Below, one piece after another: positions 45,376 through 52,473 of a DNA stretch of 64,000 nucleotides. Origin of the DNA: Prosthecobacter algae (GTDB lineage: Bacteria; Verrucomicrobiota; Verrucomicrobiia; Verrucomicrobiales; Verrucomicrobiaceae). The notes under the pieces are model-generated. The model searched no databases. It saw nothing but the letters and a program-made list of their open reading frames with translations, and was not told the DNA's origin. The DNA lies in NCBI RefSeq assembly GCF_039542385.1, contig NZ_BAABIA010000004.1, positions 62,001 to 126,000 of the forward strand, written 5' to 3'. Within the stretch, counting starts at the first letter, position 1; every line of letters begins with the position of its first letter. The translations under genes and the position numbers were made by a program.

Positions 45376-47379
45376 TTAGCGTTCACGGCGCTTCTTTTCA
45401 GCATCCGCTGCGGCTGGCTTTTTAGTCGGAGCTGGGGCTTTCTTCACTTGGGGGCGAGGCGCTGGAGCGGCCTTTTTTACCTCAGGGCGTGGGGCTGGGG
45501 GAGCCTGTTTGACCTGAGGACGTGGCTGGGCTGCAGGCTTTTTGACCTGGGGGGTGACCCGTGGTTCTGGCCGGGCTGTCCGCAGCGCAGCTTCATCGGG
45601 CCGTTTCACGGCTGGGGTGGGGCGGGCTTCGGGCTTGGGCATCGGCGCAGGTTTCACCTTTGGGGTGCTGGGTTCTGGCATGCGCTTCGGCTTGGCTTCA
45701 GGAACGCGGCGTGGCTCCGGCATGGGGACTGGGCGGGCATCCGAAGGGGCATTGGGAATATTGGGACGCATATCCGGGAGGCGTTCAGGCCGATTTCCTG
45801 GGGACTCAGGGCGGACCTTCGGCAGCTCGGGTCTGGTTTTACGGGGTTCGGGCACATTAGGGACAGCCTTGGGGGCTGGGGGCGCATCTTCGGTTTTTGG
45901 CGGGGTCATCGGGGTGCCGCCACGACGTGGAATTTCATCGCTGGGAACCACACCTGGAGCTAGCCGAGGACGGGGGGCCTCGCCTGGCTTCACGCCTGGG
46001 CGACGATCTGGGCGGTCATCTTTGTCTGCACCTGGACGCTCAGGTTTTTCGGGCTGTCCACGGCCAGGGAGGTCGCGTGGGTTGGCACCTGGCATGCGGC
46101 CTTCTTCACCACGGCCATCCGGGGTGCGGTCACCCGGCATCCGGCCATCTCTCGGGCGTTCACCTGGACGTGTTTCACGGTCAGGCATGCCGGGGCGATC
46201 TGGCGCACCGGTGGGAGGGGTGTCTTTCACATCGGGCCTGCCATTCTTTTTCCGAGGGTCGCCTGGTTGGCCATCCTTATCGGCGGGCATGGCCTTGCGC
46301 ACATCTTCCTCGATGCTGCCTGGGGCTGGGCGCTGGCCGGGGCCACGGCGTTCTTCGGGCTTCAGCAGACGGCCAACGGCGGGTGGTGGCACTTTGCTGG
46401 TCACCAGATCGAGCGCTTTGTCAGGCAGATTGGCAGGTTTGTTTTTGGAAAAATCTTCGCGTTGACGCTCACGCAGGCGCTCGACGGCCTGTGTATCGCT
46501 GCCACGCCAGCCGCGGTCAATTTCAGGGCGCTCGAGGCGTTCTTTCACCCGGGAAGGGAGGCGGAGGGACTCATCTCTGCGAATGGATGGGGCAGCGACG
46601 ATGAGTTCATCCCGCTCAATGCGTGAGAGGCTGTCGTAACCCCGGGGCCGTTCGCCGCGTGTGTTCTGCCAATCATTGCGGAAGCGGTCATCGTCGCGGC
46701 GCAGGCTTAGGCGACGGATGCGGTTTTCACCCCGGTCGAACCGGGAAGGATCCGGGCCGCCCACAAAGATGTTGTTCACCACATTCTGCCTATAGGAGAT
46801 GTTGGTGATGTTTACGGAGCGGTCAATGTAGGTGTAGTTGCGGCCGCGATCAATGATGACCGGACGCAGGGAAGTGCGGCGGGCAAAGAGATTGAACGGC
46901 ACGAAGTTATAATAGGAGGGGCCGACATCGTAGTAGCTGTCCGTCCACTGATTGAAGCCGACGCTGACAGACCAGCGAGCCTCGGGGGGCAAGGGGGCCC
47001 AGCCGATGTGGTCATCGGCCTGGCGCCAGGAAACCCAGGCGGGGGCCCACTCATAACCAGGCACCCAGACCCAGTTCCCGCTCATGCGGATCCAGCGTCC
47101 ATAGTGGTAGGTGGCCCAGCCGAAGTCTTCGTTCGAGATCCAGGTCCAGCCGGCATCCGTGTAGGCCCAATAGCCATCCGAGTAAGGTGCCCAGCCGGGA
47201 TCTTGGGAAACAGCAGGCTGAAATACGTATCCGTAATCATCGGCATAGATCCAGTCGCCGTGCGGACTCAGGTTATCAAAGAAGAAGTCGATGGAGACAT
47301 CCACATCAGCGCGCGCCGTGGAGACCGGCGCTGCCACCGCTAGAAGCGTGGCGCATAAGAGGAGATAAAAGTGTTTCAT
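45376..47379 (-). CDS. Secreted DUF6600 protein with long basic Pro-rich tail
   Basis: 667 residues. Signal peptide (FYLLLCATLLAVAAPVSTARA). Residues ~25-130 have the Trp/Tyr-rich DUF6600 pattern: PHGDWIYADDYGYVFQP, GWAPYSDGYWAYTDAGW, WATYHYGRW and WVPGYEWAPAWVSW. Residues ~190-320 are Arg-rich, and the last ~330 are a Pro/Arg/Lys/Ala low-complexity tail, with three copies of a PAPRP-x-VKKA-like unit close to the end. The family often sits near FecR-type genes, but none is here. Function unknown; the tail could bind polyanions such as nucleic acid or acidic glycans. Confidence 0.85.
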   Translation of the reverse strand: MKHFYLLLCATLLAVAAPVSTARADVDVSIDFFFDNLSPHGDWIYADDYGYVFQPAVSQDPGWAPYSDGYWAYTDAGWTWISNEDFGWATYHYGRWIRMSGNWVWVPGYEWAPAWVSWRQADDHIGWAPLPPEARWSVSVGFNQWTDSYYDVGPSYYNFVPFNLFARRTSLRPVIIDRGRNYTYIDRSVNITNISYRQNVVNNIFVGGPDPSRFDRGENRIRRLSLRRDDDRFRNDWQNTRGERPRGYDSLSRIERDELIVAAPSIRRDESLRLPSRVKERLERPEIDRGWRGSDTQAVERLRERQREDFSKNKPANLPDKALDLVTSKVPPPAVGRLLKPEERRGPGQRPAPGSIEEDVRKAMPADKDGQPGDPRKKNGRPDVKDTPPTGAPDRPGMPDRETRPGERPRDGRMPGDRTPDGRGEEGRMPGANPRDLPGRGQPEKPERPGADKDDRPDRRPGVKPGEAPRPRLAPGVVPSDEIPRRGGTPMTPPKTEDAPPAPKAVPNVPEPRKTRPELPKVRPESPGNRPERLPDMRPNIPNAPSDARPVPMPEPRRVPEAKPKRMPEPSTPKVKPAPMPKPEARPTPAVKRPDEAALRTARPEPRVTPQVKKPAAQPRPQVKQAPPAPRPEVKKAAPAPRPQVKKAPAPTKKPAAADAEKKRRER

Positions 47380-47529
47380 GGTGAGGGTGGGTTCATGGGA
47401 ATCAGCCTCGTTGGATGCGGTGGCCGGGTCATTCATTCGAACTGAATGAGTGACAGGTCTTGCCGCAGCCTCTGGGGCTGATTACCACCCTCACTTCTGC
47501 ATGCAGTTGGCCAAGGTATCTCGCTGATC

Positions 47530-47665: not shown

Positions 47666-48340
47666 CTAGCTTCGGTCACCCACAAAAATGGTGTGCGTCT
47701 TTTTCTTCGCTTGAGGGTAAGCCTTGCAGCCCACGATTTCGACTTTGAAGCCTGCTTTGGCTAGCCTCCGGGCAAAGGCGGAGTCCTGGCTGGCAGACCA
47801 GAAGGTGACGCGGCCTCCAGGCTTTAAAGCCCGTGAGATGGTGGCCAGTCCCTGGGCCTGATAGAGGCGGCCATTGCCTTCTTTGACCATGGCGATGGGG
47901 CCATTGTCCACATCCAGCAAAATGGCATCATAATGGCCTGAGGGGGCCTGGGCGAGGATTTGGAAAACATCCATGACGGAGATTTCCACACGAGGATCAT
48001 CCAGCAGCAGGCCATTGACGGTGGTGAGGAATTCACGGTTCCAGGCGACCACTTCAGGCAGCAGCTCCGCCACCTGCACATGGGCACCAGCACCCACGCA
48101 CTCCAGCACGCGACGCAGGCTGAAGCCGAGCCCCAAACCCCCGATGAGAACGCGGGGGGCCGTGTGCTGACCCAAGCGGCTGCAGGCCAGTTCGGCCAAG
48201 ACCTTCTCGGACTCGGAAGCGTTGGTTCCCATCAAAGGTTGGCGGTTCACGCGAATGTAAAACTCCGTGTCGTGGGAATGCAGCGTCAGTTCGGCCCCCT
48301 CGGGCGTGCGGGCTTGGGCGAGGGTGAGGAAGGGTTTCAT
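47666..48340 (-). CDS. Spermidine-synthase-like methyltransferase-fold protein
   Basis: 224 residues. Rossmann-type fold with RVLIGGLGLGFSLRRVLE as the SAM-type loop, then VQVAELLPEVVAWNREFL, HYDAILLDVDNGP, and ALKPGGRVTFWSAS, as in the SpeE superfamily. The N-terminal beta part of spermidine synthase is reduced (residues 1-60), so polyamine synthesis is not certain. ATG 48340. Divergent from an unusual cupin gene (156 bp). Confidence 0.8.
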   Translation of the reverse strand: MKPFLTLAQARTPEGAELTLHSHDTEFYIRVNRQPLMGTNASESEKVLAELACSRLGQHTAPRVLIGGLGLGFSLRRVLECVGAGAHVQVAELLPEVVAWNREFLTTVNGLLLDDPRVEISVMDVFQILAQAPSGHYDAILLDVDNGPIAMVKEGNGRLYQAQGLATISRALKPGGRVTFWSASQDSAFARRLAKAGFKVEIVGCKAYPQAKKKTHTIFVGDRS

Positions 48341-48496
48341 GAATGAGGCTGGGAAAAGGGTGCGCAACCTGCCGCCTCCAGGAGGTGCAAAGGAGCGCGC
48401 AGAGGTGCGGGTGCAAGGGCGAAGCAGGCGGATGTTTGCCCTACCGCCTTTGAATGGCTCTTGTCGGGGCCTTTCCTCTGGTGAAAGGGTGCAGGA

Positions 48497-49717
48497 ATGA
48501 ACGACTTTTTCAAGGATATGGGCCAGACGGTTTTGAAGCGCTGGAAGCAGGAGAATTTCTCGTTGGAGAAATTCCCTGGCATCGCGCAGGCGGTCCTGGA
48601 CGAGCGGCCGCCAGCCCAACATGTGGACCTCCCGGCCTTGATGCGGGAGTTCCTGCTGGATGACGAGCAGCCTTTGCAAACTCAGTCCGGTTTTGGCCAG
48701 CCGGAGCTGGTGGCGTATGAGCATCCGCGCTTTTATATCCAACTGCTTTTCTGGATGGATGGGACGACGGACATTCATCAGCATGAGTTTTCCGGGGCCT
48801 TTCACGTGATGCATGGTTCCAGCATCCATGCGCATTATGAGTTCGAAAAAAGGCACGCCATCACCCCGAATCTTCAGATGGGGCAGGTGCGGATGAAAAA
48901 CATCGAACTGCTGGAGACTGGGCGCACAGTATCCATCATCTCCGGTCGCCAGTGCATCCATTCGCTTTTCCATCTGGATACCCCCTCTGTGACCGTGGTG
49001 GTGCGCACGCAGAATGATCCGGGCACGGGGCCCCAGTTTAACTACCTGCCGCCTCACGTCGCCCTGGACCCGATGTTCAGCGATGTCCTGACCATGCGCC
49101 GCAAGCAACTGCTGGATGTCTTGGAGCAGACGGAAGATCCTGAGTATGCGGACCTGGTGATCGAAATGATCTCAGACCTGGATTTCGAGCGTGGCTTTTA
49201 CATCTTGCAGCATTGCATGGGGGCCTTGGCGAATCTTGGCGAGTGGGGGACTGCGCTATCAGTTTTTGAAACTAAGCATGGGGAACTGGCCCAGGGCGTG
49301 GCGGCCACCCTGGAGGAGTGTGTGCATCGCGATGCTATCAAAGGCATGCGCAGCAGCATTGGCGAGCCGGAGCATCGCTTCTTCCTGGCACTGCTGATGA
49401 ATGTCACCAACCGGGCAGATCTGCTGGCCCTGGTGGCCCAACGTTTCCCGAATGTGACGCCGACGGATACTGTGCTGCGCTGGGCGGATGAGTTGATGGA
49501 TACTTCCGATGATGGCTGCGCCATTCTGGATGCCCTGTTCCCAGAGTCCCTGGACATCGCCATCGAGGACCAGGGGGAGCTCTTCCTGGCTGCCTTGAAG
49601 CACTTGATGTTAGGTCAAAAGAAGGCTCCGGCTTCGCTCAAGCCTTTGGCTGCGGCCGGGCTGAAACAGGTGAAGGCTGCATTGGCGGCCTCCAGCCTGC
49701 GCGTTTTGGTGGACTGA
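48497..49717 (+). CDS. Cupin-like protein with helical C-terminal half, unknown function
   Basis: 406 residues. The N-terminal ~190 residues carry a cupin-like motif: DIHQHEFSGAFHVMHGSSIHAHY (H-x-H) and later GRTVSIISGRQCIHSLFHLD with a second His pair, resembling cysteine-dioxygenase-type cupins. The C-terminal ~200 residues look all-helical (for example FERGFYILQHCMGALANLGEW, then LFLAALKHLMLGQ). I do not recognise the family. No signal peptide, so cytoplasmic. Possibly a metal-dependent enzyme fused to a regulatory helical domain. Confidence 0.75.
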   Translation: MNDFFKDMGQTVLKRWKQENFSLEKFPGIAQAVLDERPPAQHVDLPALMREFLLDDEQPLQTQSGFGQPELVAYEHPRFYIQLLFWMDGTTDIHQHEFSGAFHVMHGSSIHAHYEFEKRHAITPNLQMGQVRMKNIELLETGRTVSIISGRQCIHSLFHLDTPSVTVVVRTQNDPGTGPQFNYLPPHVALDPMFSDVLTMRRKQLLDVLEQTEDPEYADLVIEMISDLDFERGFYILQHCMGALANLGEWGTALSVFETKHGELAQGVAATLEECVHRDAIKGMRSSIGEPEHRFFLALLMNVTNRADLLALVAQRFPNVTPTDTVLRWADELMDTSDDGCAILDALFPESLDIAIEDQGELFLAALKHLMLGQKKAPASLKPLAAAGLKQVKAALAASSLRVLVD

Positions 49718-50641: not shown

Positions 50642-51133
50642 ATGGATGCTGATGAGTTAACTGGGCTGAGATCTCTTCACACAGATGAAGTGCATGAATA
50701 CGGGAATCCGGTGCACGTTCTCTACCGGGTGGCTTTCGTCGGCGTCATCATTACGGTGCTGGTAGTCGTGGCCACGGGGATCAGTATGTGGTCTGAAGGG
50801 CGGCTGGAATATCTTCGCTCTGGTACGGCCCTTGGCGGGTTTTTGGCTCTGTTGACTATCATGCCGCTGGGGGTGCTACCCACGGTTCTCTTTCGCATTC
50901 GTCTGATCCGTGGCCGGGTGCAGCATGTTTTTCTCAACCGCTATGTGGTGAGCGACTATCCCATCCATGAGTATGAGAGAACCAAGCGAAATTCCCGTGG
51001 TTGTGCCGCCGTGCTGCATTTTCAAGGCGGCCACAAGATCCACTTTTTCGGAGCTCAAGCCGGAGAACTCGACAGGATGGGAAAGGATCTCAAACGCATG
51101 AAACGGGAAGCCGTTCAAGGATTGACCACATAG
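50642..51133 (+). CDS. Small membrane protein of unknown function
   Basis: 163 residues from ATG 50642. Two membrane helices (AFVGVIITVLVVVATGISMW and GGFLALLTIMPLGVLPTVLF), then a soluble C-terminus with VQHVFLNRYVVSDYPIHEYER, somewhat PH-like. No family recognised. Its 3' end overlaps the convergent di-haem peroxidase gene by 19 bp. Confidence 0.65.
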   Translation: MDADELTGLRSLHTDEVHEYGNPVHVLYRVAFVGVIITVLVVVATGISMWSEGRLEYLRSGTALGGFLALLTIMPLGVLPTVLFRIRLIRGRVQHVFLNRYVVSDYPIHEYERTKRNSRGCAAVLHFQGGHKIHFFGAQAGELDRMGKDLKRMKREAVQGLTT

Positions 51134-52473
51134 GCATAACGATAGAACTTGGAGTTGGTTAGGCTGACGCTGTGCTGGCAGAGGCCATTGAGGTCGGCGG
51201 TCACAGTGGCCACGATGCTGTTCCAATTCACCAGATCCGTCGAAGACTGAAGCTGATAGGACAAACCTGGGACGGCCTGGCAGATGACGTTTGCTGTACT
51301 GCTCCCCGTTTTTTGAATGGCGATCTCGGTGGGCGGGAAGACGATGAGTGTGAGATTGCCTTGGTCATCAAAGGGATCTGACCAGCGGGCATCGGTGTAA
51401 ACGGCGCTGCCGGTGAGCGTTTGAAGAAAGGCCACAAGACTTTCTTTCTGAGGCTGGGTGAGGTTGAGGTTTTGAGTTTGATTATTAGGACGGCGGAGAC
51501 GGTTGTCGAGGCCTGCATTGTCGGCTGGAATGGCATTGTAGTGATTCACCACCTGGGCCAGCGATGTCAGGCTGCCATCATGCATGAAGGCACCGTTGGA
51601 CTGGCCTCCTGGCCCTACAAGGTCTCGCAGGGAAGGGGAGCGGGTGTTCGTCAAATCGGTGCCACCGCCAATCTTGGTGATCACTCCGTTGTTTCCGCTG
51701 AGAGGGTCAATGTCAAACTCGCCGGGCCGATGGCAGCCTGCACATCCAGCACCTCCAGGAGGCGGGGCGAGGAAGAGCTGTTTGCCCGCGTTTTCCTGCG
51801 CGGTGTAGTTTGGGAAGGCGTTGTTAGCGTTGGCCACCTGCACACGGCCTGCATCGAAACGAGAGTCAAAGGACTGGATGCTGCGGATGAACTGGGAGAT
51901 GGCCAGTTGCACGCGAGTTTCGGTGATGGCGCTGTCTCCAAAGGTCATGGTGAAAAGCACCCGATACTCTTCAATGGCGGCCAGCTTCACCAGCAGTTCA
52001 GAGAAAGCCGGATCTCCATTGGCCCCGCTGAATCCCATCTCAGCATGATCGCGGATCGGCTGGGTGGTCTGGTTTTCCAGCGAGGTGGCGCGCTCATCCC
52101 AAAAGAACCGCACCTCTTGGGCAAAGCGGGCATTGATGAGCCGCATGGAATGCCGTCCCGTCGTACCGTTCACGCCCGTGCTGGCCGTAGCTGTGTCGCT
52201 GAAGGCGTGAGCCTGCTTATGGCAGGTGGAGCAGGAGACGCTGTCATTTCGCGACAGTCGCTTGTCATAAAACAGCACGCGCCCCAGCGTGGCTCCCTTG
52301 TCCGTGATGGCATTGCCTTGCGGGGTGTTGTTGCGGGTGACGTAGGCTGGCACCGTCTGGTTGGCGTAATTGGCCAGACTCGTCAGGTCAATGACTCCGT
52401 CTCCGGCTTTGGCGATGGAGGCCAGGCTGGAAGCAAACGTTGTCCAGAGGACAAAAAGGGGAGAAATTTTCAT
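51115..52473 (-). CDS. Di-haem cytochrome c peroxidase (MauG/CCP family)
   Basis: 452 residues with a signal peptide (PLFVLWTTFASSLASIAKA). Two c-type haem sites: SCSTCHKQAHAF (about residue 80) and CAGCHRPGEFD (about 245). The family blocks LIN-ARFAQEVRFFWDERATSL and TRSPSLRDLVG are present. The last ~75 residues form an extra module with YQLQSSTDLVNW, a pattern common on exported Verrucomicrobia proteins. Acts in the periplasm, reducing peroxide or modifying a protein; substrate unknown. Confidence 0.92.
   Translation of the reverse strand: MKISPLFVLWTTFASSLASIAKAGDGVIDLTSLANYANQTVPAYVTRNNTPQGNAITDKGATLGRVLFYDKRLSRNDSVSCSTCHKQAHAFSDTATASTGVNGTTGRHSMRLINARFAQEVRFFWDERATSLENQTTQPIRDHAEMGFSGANGDPAFSELLVKLAAIEEYRVLFTMTFGDSAITETRVQLAISQFIRSIQSFDSRFDAGRVQVANANNAFPNYTAQENAGKQLFLAPPPGGAGCAGCHRPGEFDIDPLSGNNGVITKIGGGTDLTNTRSPSLRDLVGPGGQSNGAFMHDGSLTSLAQVVNHYNAIPADNAGLDNRLRRPNNQTQNLNLTQPQKESLVAFLQTLTGSAVYTDARWSDPFDDQGNLTLIVFPPTEIAIQKTGSSTANVICQAVPGLSYQLQSSTDLVNWNSIVATVTADLNGLCQHSVSLTNSKFYRYAYVVNP

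Follow-up and report, generated by a model that had tools for sequence, protein, structure and literature searches.

The reading frame at positions 48497-49717 (+ strand, ATG start) of the 64,000-nucleotide stretch of Prosthecobacter algae DNA analysed here (the window) encodes a 406-residue protein in which a cupin with the thiol-dioxygenase fold is followed by a helical region and a C-terminal β3-α3 module of RRE-like topology. We suggest that it belongs to an undescribed family of iron enzymes with this fold that serve in RiPP tailoring in myxobacteria, and that the window copy lies in a solitary Verrucomicrobia branch; we regard this reading as plausible, if somewhat short of probable. As the original prediction held, the protein falls in no named family: it has no Pfam match, one chance-level row in NCBIfam (10.5 bits) and two chance-level rows in the PDB. 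None of 19 diverse members scanned singly (E ≤ 0.1) matched a cupin or CDO family, PF05995 (CDO_I) included, and no cupin came up in PDB sequence searches, whether the query was the single protein or one of the profiles A2 and A3 (A2 left out eight of 48 loci, L014, L031, L035, L040, L046, L047, L049 and L054, as cut or near-identical). Relatives were absent from the viral contigs searched and from the plasmids searched with three family queries, and PHROGs yielded nothing meaningful for the family. Five BFVD entries matched at E ≤ 0.001, including at least one viral protein with the name cysteine dioxygenase type I.

Fold and predicted active site

The AlphaFold model of the window protein (42 sequences) has a pLDDT of 91.7 and a pTM of 0.86. 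Among 50 listed PDB rows from Foldseek, 47 bear the name of a dioxygenase of cysteine, mercaptopropionate, mercaptosuccinate, cysteamine or ergothioneine, or simply 'thiol dioxygenase'; the remaining three comprise B. subtilis YubC, listed with two chains, and a Clostridium protein whose function is unknown (E 7e-6 to 2e-4). VIA aligned residues 1-193 (48497-49075), including the N-terminal helices, with Pseudomonas MDO (4tlf_A) at a Z of 14.6 (rmsd 2.9, 163 residues aligned), and Z was about 13 (13.4) against CDO, 11-12 against PCO and about 11 against ADO. The window protein thus has the thiol-dioxygenase cupin fold, as seen in a predicted and not an experimental structure, and the CDO-like cupin that had been proposed for its N-terminal half is borne out. 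The same prediction of some 200 helical residues behind the cupin holds roughly, with helices between residues 197-332 and 356-405, but residues 334-347 form three short strands; residues 3-54 of the model are also mostly helical. Modelled separately, residues 193-406 reached a pLDDT of 93.7, had no Foldseek match at E ≤ 0.001 and gave only generic helical matches in VIA, the best at a Z of 6.8, which is in the noise range for helical models. These VIA rows mainly span the first 81 of the 214 residues, so that the absence of an RRE among them is uninformative. Structure prediction of each half, the check recommended at the outset, therefore assigns the thiol-dioxygenase fold to the N-terminal half and generic helical likeness to the other, and the middle region (residues 197-332, 49085-49492) has no convincing known fold.

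The expected HxH and late His pair are present as I-H94-Q-H96 (H94 to H96, 48776-48784) and I-H155-S-L-F-H159 (H155 at 48959-48961, H159 at 48971-48973). In an alignment of 76 rows, which include the window's own, truncated and near-identical rows, 73 retain all of His94, His96, His155, His159 and Arg170 (49004-49006); singly they are kept in 75, 73, 76, 73 and 75 rows. Trp86 and Gln61 are found in 75 rows each and Gly107, Gly129 and Gly142 in all 76. His159, a possible second-shell residue, stands at what we take, placing the motif by eye, to be the Asn position of cupin motif 2. When the family profile was aligned with four myxobacterial CDO_I proteins, H94, H96 and H155 coincided with the three iron ligands of CDO, A101 with its Cys, and T166 and V168 with the Ser and His of the Ser-His-Tyr motif; R170 falls on the motif's Tyr (CDO Tyr157), one column past the aligned block. 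The profile-profile search advised in the original prediction hence brought the His ligands into register with CDO, but at a weak score (hhalign E 0.011, probability 4%). A three-His iron site is accordingly predicted from alignment and conservation at the sequence level. In the register of this weak alignment the Ser-His-Tyr motif is absent (T166 in 65 of 76 rows, with Ser in seven; V168 in 73; R170 in 75), and the crosslinking Cys is replaced by Ala in 71 rows and Val in five. Most rows have FG[QE]P near the CDO Arg60 position; the Arg60 and Arg168 parts lie outside the CDO profile alignment. From fold and conservation, both computed, we infer an iron enzyme that acts on a thiol: Fe(II) would be bound by the predicted ligands His94, His96 and His155, and O2 would oxidise an iron-bound thiolate, in the simplest case to a sulfinate.

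By the features tested, the protein is outside both CDO/MDO and ADO/PCO. It resembles MDO and CDO in the fold over residues 1-193, N-terminal helices included, and in the register of HxH...H, and differs from them in having T166-V168-R170 for Ser-His-Tyr, Ala for the crosslinking Cys, no PF05995 match and about 210 extra residues. With ADO and PCO it shares the fold (Z about 11-12), the lack of Ser-His-Tyr and a proposed peptide-type substrate, but it has Val168 (73/76) where ADO and PCO, in excerpts of PMC8503633, have Asp at the motif's His position, and it has no Pfam match. As far as excerpts of PMC8050391 and PMC8503633 describe them, the substrates of known thiol dioxygenases are free thiols or protein N-termini; the motif raises the rate in CDO and MDO and is not required (PMC8050391), and ADO and PCO, which have protein N-termini among their substrates, have lost it (PMC8503633). 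Since the Ser-His-Tyr motif and the crosslinking Cys are both lost here, as in the enzymes that act on N-termini, a large or peptide thiol substrate is suggested.

Distribution of the family and its Verrucomicrobia neighbourhoods

A scan of a bacterial genome collection of 84,980 species, with two patterns fitted to close relatives, recovered 48 cupin loci. All but a few carry titles that name Verrucomicrobiota groups, the exceptions being one Corallococcus, one titled only 'bacterium' and one labelled Proteobacteria that nevertheless falls inside the Verrucomicrobia branch. The matched reading frame is open from start to stop in 45 of the 48, and the remaining three run into the end of the fetched DNA. 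With the window's genome counted, 9 of 56 relatives and 10 of 387 genomes of its phylum have the cupin; matches were found in 15 of 193 genomes of the Corallococcus phylum (two partial only), and 13 of 147 genomes of the class Myxococcia are carriers. A quick tree was built from 71 rows, 53 of them on the Verrucomicrobia side; of these, 49 form one group (99% SH-aLRT), outside which stand L057 and three distant class members (L065-L067). The rows L057, L067, L081, L082 and L101 are on long branches and uncertainly placed, and L014, L031, L035, L047 and L054 were left out of the tree; the alignments exclude L083, which has an internal stop, and a fragmentary second copy in G513. The C-terminal module is missing from 11 of the 76 aligned rows, four of which are cut by contig ends. 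Four shorter Verrucomicrobia members (L045, L048, L049 and L051; 351-358 aa with a stop codon) end ahead of it.

No shared gene context was found for the Verrucomicrobia copies: no neighbour was conserved across their loci beyond clade-level synteny, and their flanks, taken to 2.5 kb, yielded no conserved small ORF resembling a precursor. The window genome has no LanB match, LanB being missing also in 26 of the 27 other genomes searched together with it, and no PqqD match. The window copy is thus solitary, and its link to peptides is indirect.

Such a copy might instead be a small-molecule thiol dioxygenase, turning a free thiol into a sulfinate in sulphur catabolism, with the lanthipeptide association described below a myxobacterial recruitment. 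The fold is that of MDO and CDO, canonical CDO_I is absent from all ten Verrucomicrobia genomes searched (the window's included), and a TauE/SafE-cluster gene lies 0-2 genes downstream on the same strand in seven loci mostly labelled Spartobacteria (L027, L029, L038, L041, L043, L044 and L056; Pfam on L043). In that subgroup the cupin is upstream of the TauE/SafE sulfite exporter, dnaG and rpoD; an exporter gene in a dnaG/rpoD block may, however, be mere synteny. As the Ser-His-Tyr motif is absent and a small thiol needs no fused helical region of 200 residues, we consider this alternative unlikely.

The facing gene (47666-48340, - strand) encodes, as predicted, a short spermidine-synthase-like protein of 224 aa from an ATG at 48340 (PF01564 Spermine_synth, 34.1 bits against a cut-off of 22.9). 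Its start codon is 156 bp from that of the cupin, and in the intergenic region (48341-48496) no promoter-like site was found; a single one turned up in 2.3 kb, as chance would give. It had been proposed that the two genes share a promoter and a metabolite, and a functional partnership of this kind, around a polyamine-type metabolite, would fit the divergent pair in L001, L002, L010, L059 and L061, which make up all five members of one clade (97% SH-aLRT), and the convergent neighbour in L034. Surveyed across Verrucomicrobiota, however, the divergence is restricted to that clade and was seen at no other locus, which leaves the proposal unsupported as a general one. The SpeE-like gene accompanies the cupin at 4 of 50 distinct loci (L001, L002, L010 and L034; 900 bases or more were available upstream at 46 of the 50 and downstream at 42) and at two of nine further Verrucomicrobia loci (L059 and L061). 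It is also common without the cupin: 35 of the 56 relatives have a match, 8 with and 27 without the cupin, and of the 18 with at least 70% identity seven have the cupin. The pair is split between contigs in G006, G010, G024 and G029. A family-wide link is largely refuted, the SpeE-like gene is probably outside any conserved system, and we give a partnership hardly any credence. Elsewhere in the window, a long Pro/Arg-rich protein with an N-terminal DUF6600 domain (45376-47436, - strand) and a di-haem cytochrome c peroxidase/MauG-type protein (51115-52473, - strand; PF03150, 145 bits) are encoded.

Lanthipeptide-type neighbourhoods in Myxococcia

In 9 of the 13 Myxococcia carrier genomes a gene for the lantibiotic dehydratase LanB (Lant_dehydr_N match; lesser pieces of LanB frames already counted were left out) lies 290-4393 bp from a family member. 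The density of LanB genes predicts 0.08 such genomes; the nominal probability of 2e-18 treats the genomes as independent, which they are not, and the carriers span several deep branches. For the G519 and G597 copies the nearest LanB on the contig is 1.7-1.9 Mb distant, and G583 has three copies, one of them on a contig without LanB. Contig ends about 1.8 kb away hide part of the surroundings of the G492 and G589 copies. The two LanB proteins examined are full-length, with N- and C-terminal domains. LanC was confirmed by Pfam in L089, L087 and L103, and no gene of the LanC-like cluster was found within the fetched stretches of L084-L086.

Each of the nine LanB loci has a candidate precursor peptide, and all candidates have Cys in the second half. 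For five loci the candidate came from a leader-motif filter: a 55-aa ...GCPG peptide in L084-L086 and a 64-aa five-Cys peptide in L089 and L090; the filter picked two evident non-precursors as well. The candidates of the other four were chosen by eye and comprise a 58-aa peptide (L087 and L093) and more doubtful peptides in L088 and L103. The neighbourhood, like the fold, is a computed result; from it we infer a peptide substrate, the family being in myxobacteria a presumed tailoring component of class I lanthipeptide-type clusters. Because the relatives in these predatory myxobacteria adjoin genes for modified peptides, the family may be a new peptide-modifying tool. Among the literature matches listed, drawn mostly from outside the subscription literature, none describes a thiol-dioxygenase-like or RRE-fused thiol-dioxygenase-fold protein in RiPP biosynthesis; an excerpt of PMC10783134 concerns Nif11/cupin in Synechococcus.

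An iron enzyme of these clusters need not oxidise a thiol. Carbon oxidation, cleavage or isomerisation of a dehydrated or cyclised peptide would accord equally with the LanB neighbourhood and the conserved active site; cupins are chemically versatile, and an Arg at the position of the catalytic Tyr (75/76) suggests altered chemistry. This is nevertheless quite improbable in our view, as the best structural matches are specifically thiol dioxygenases and every candidate precursor has a Cys in its second half.

The three rows of the alignment without both H96 and H159 are degenerate paralogues beside LanB (L084b, L085b and L086b; L084 5145-6353, L085 5475-6683 and L086 14331-15698), and each shares its locus with an intact paralogue some 6.6 kb away. 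Intact and degenerate copies possibly form a pair of enzyme and pseudoenzyme. That the paralogues persist without these residues, and that the helical half resembles generic helical repeats, would also suit a non-catalytic metal- or ligand-binding protein acting as sensor, chaperone or scaffold, an explanation which is very improbable given that all predicted active-site residues are retained in 73 of 76 rows. Around the cupins, the L084-L086 clusters (Pfam on L084; L085 and L086 by clustering) encode an 800-aa WD40 protein, a DUF6445 protein, an unknown 391-aa protein and a protein with sub-cut-off ATP-grasp matches.

Several further loci were noted. The fragmentary copy in G513 (G513:C1 4536897-4537061) is 2.2 kb from a second LanB. 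A canonical CDO_I gene lies about 7 kb from another LanB (G578:C1 11981947-11991428, L097) and reads in frame with an ABC-transporter ATPase. A distant Verrucomicrobium member in G230 (L106, G230:C17:160000-178000), without the C-terminal module, stands between asparagine synthase (Asn_synthase) and sulfotransferase genes and has two PqqD genes, a JmjC_2 protein, PhyH and an ABC-transporter segment within 10 kb, a lasso-peptide-like set; inspection by eye of G094 and G319 showed no such set, and neither has a PqqD match. A set of PQQ-type genes, read by eye about 13 kb away from the family member in G597, is probably there by chance.

The C-terminal module and a proposed role in peptide tailoring

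By DSSP, the C-terminal module of the window model (49496-49711) consists of strands at residues 334-337, 340-343 and 346-347 (two residues), a turn at 350-352 and helices at 356-372, 379-397 and 402-405. This is the β3-α3 order by which, according to an excerpt of PMC12710340, RREs are defined; the likeness is one of secondary-structure order. PqqD-like sequence was found in some myxobacterial homologues at the extreme C-terminus, matching profile positions of about 14-62 (Pfam PqqD) or 26-77 (NCBIfam lasso PqqD). The matches, all below cut-off, were in L055 (NCBIfam E 0.0009, Pfam 0.028), L087 (0.0037 and 0.057), L089 (NCBIfam 0.057) and the degenerate paralogues of L084 (Pfam 0.016) and L086 (Pfam 0.0001; 23.0 bits against a cut-off of 23.4). 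Pfam PqqD did not match the degenerate paralogue of L085, L088, L090 or L103, and nine other proteins scanned alongside L055 had no PqqD match.

Profile-profile comparison by hhalign of PqqD (21 rows including one identical pair, 14 after filtering) with 15 myxobacterial C-termini scored 23.2, which none of 60 column shuffles reached (maximum 14.6), and 31 other segment and reversed comparisons scored at most 16.0. Without L055 and L086b the score was 17.9 (maximum of 60 shuffles, 14.3). The clade of Corallococcus/Myxococcus type alone was exceeded by one of 60 shuffles. For the Verrucomicrobia C-termini alone the likeness is not detectable (11.2, reached by 11 of 60 shuffles); they align collinearly with the myxobacterial C-termini (E 0.0014). 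A home-made PqqD HMM (21 rows) did not separate members from shuffles (best 3.3 bits against 6.5 for a shuffle), so that the link to PqqD draws on the sub-cut-off Pfam and NCBIfam matches and the profile-profile scores.

Like RRE-fused RiPP tailoring proteins and class I lanthipeptide clusters, the family has LanB beside 9 of its 13 Myxococcia carriers, and it shares with the former the β3-α3 module (window model) and, in several myxobacterial members, sequence that is PqqD-like at sub-cut-off scores; unlike those clusters, the window copy is outside any RiPP cluster. For the favoured reading, an iron enzyme in myxobacterial RiPP tailoring, these features suggest that the PqqD/RRE-like module would grip a leader peptide while the iron domain oxidises a cysteine of the core, which in three genomes may be the sole Cys of the ...GCPG precursor, with the degenerate paralogue as a possible partner of the intact cupin. 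The solitary Verrucomicrobia branch, window copy included, keeps the active-site residues of the myxobacterial members and its C-terminal module has diverged; it would act on a substrate that is not encoded next door. Taken further, the family could be a new class of RiPP tailoring enzyme, uniting in one chain a thiol-dioxygenase fold, a helical spacer and a leader-binding RRE, oxidising peptidyl cysteine (such as the single Cys of ...GCPG) and sometimes paired with a paralogue whose metal site is dead, while the Verrucomicrobia branch modifies an unclustered peptide or protein; this fuller proposal is possible, though on balance we doubt it.

If a branch of the family is indeed tied to the modification of ribosomal peptides, it would add enzymatic cysteine oxidation to peptide tailoring. 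The candidate precursor peptides that accompany the family make this directly testable, and the results are an initial pointer to the function of a family found in two phyla and absent from Pfam and NCBIfam.
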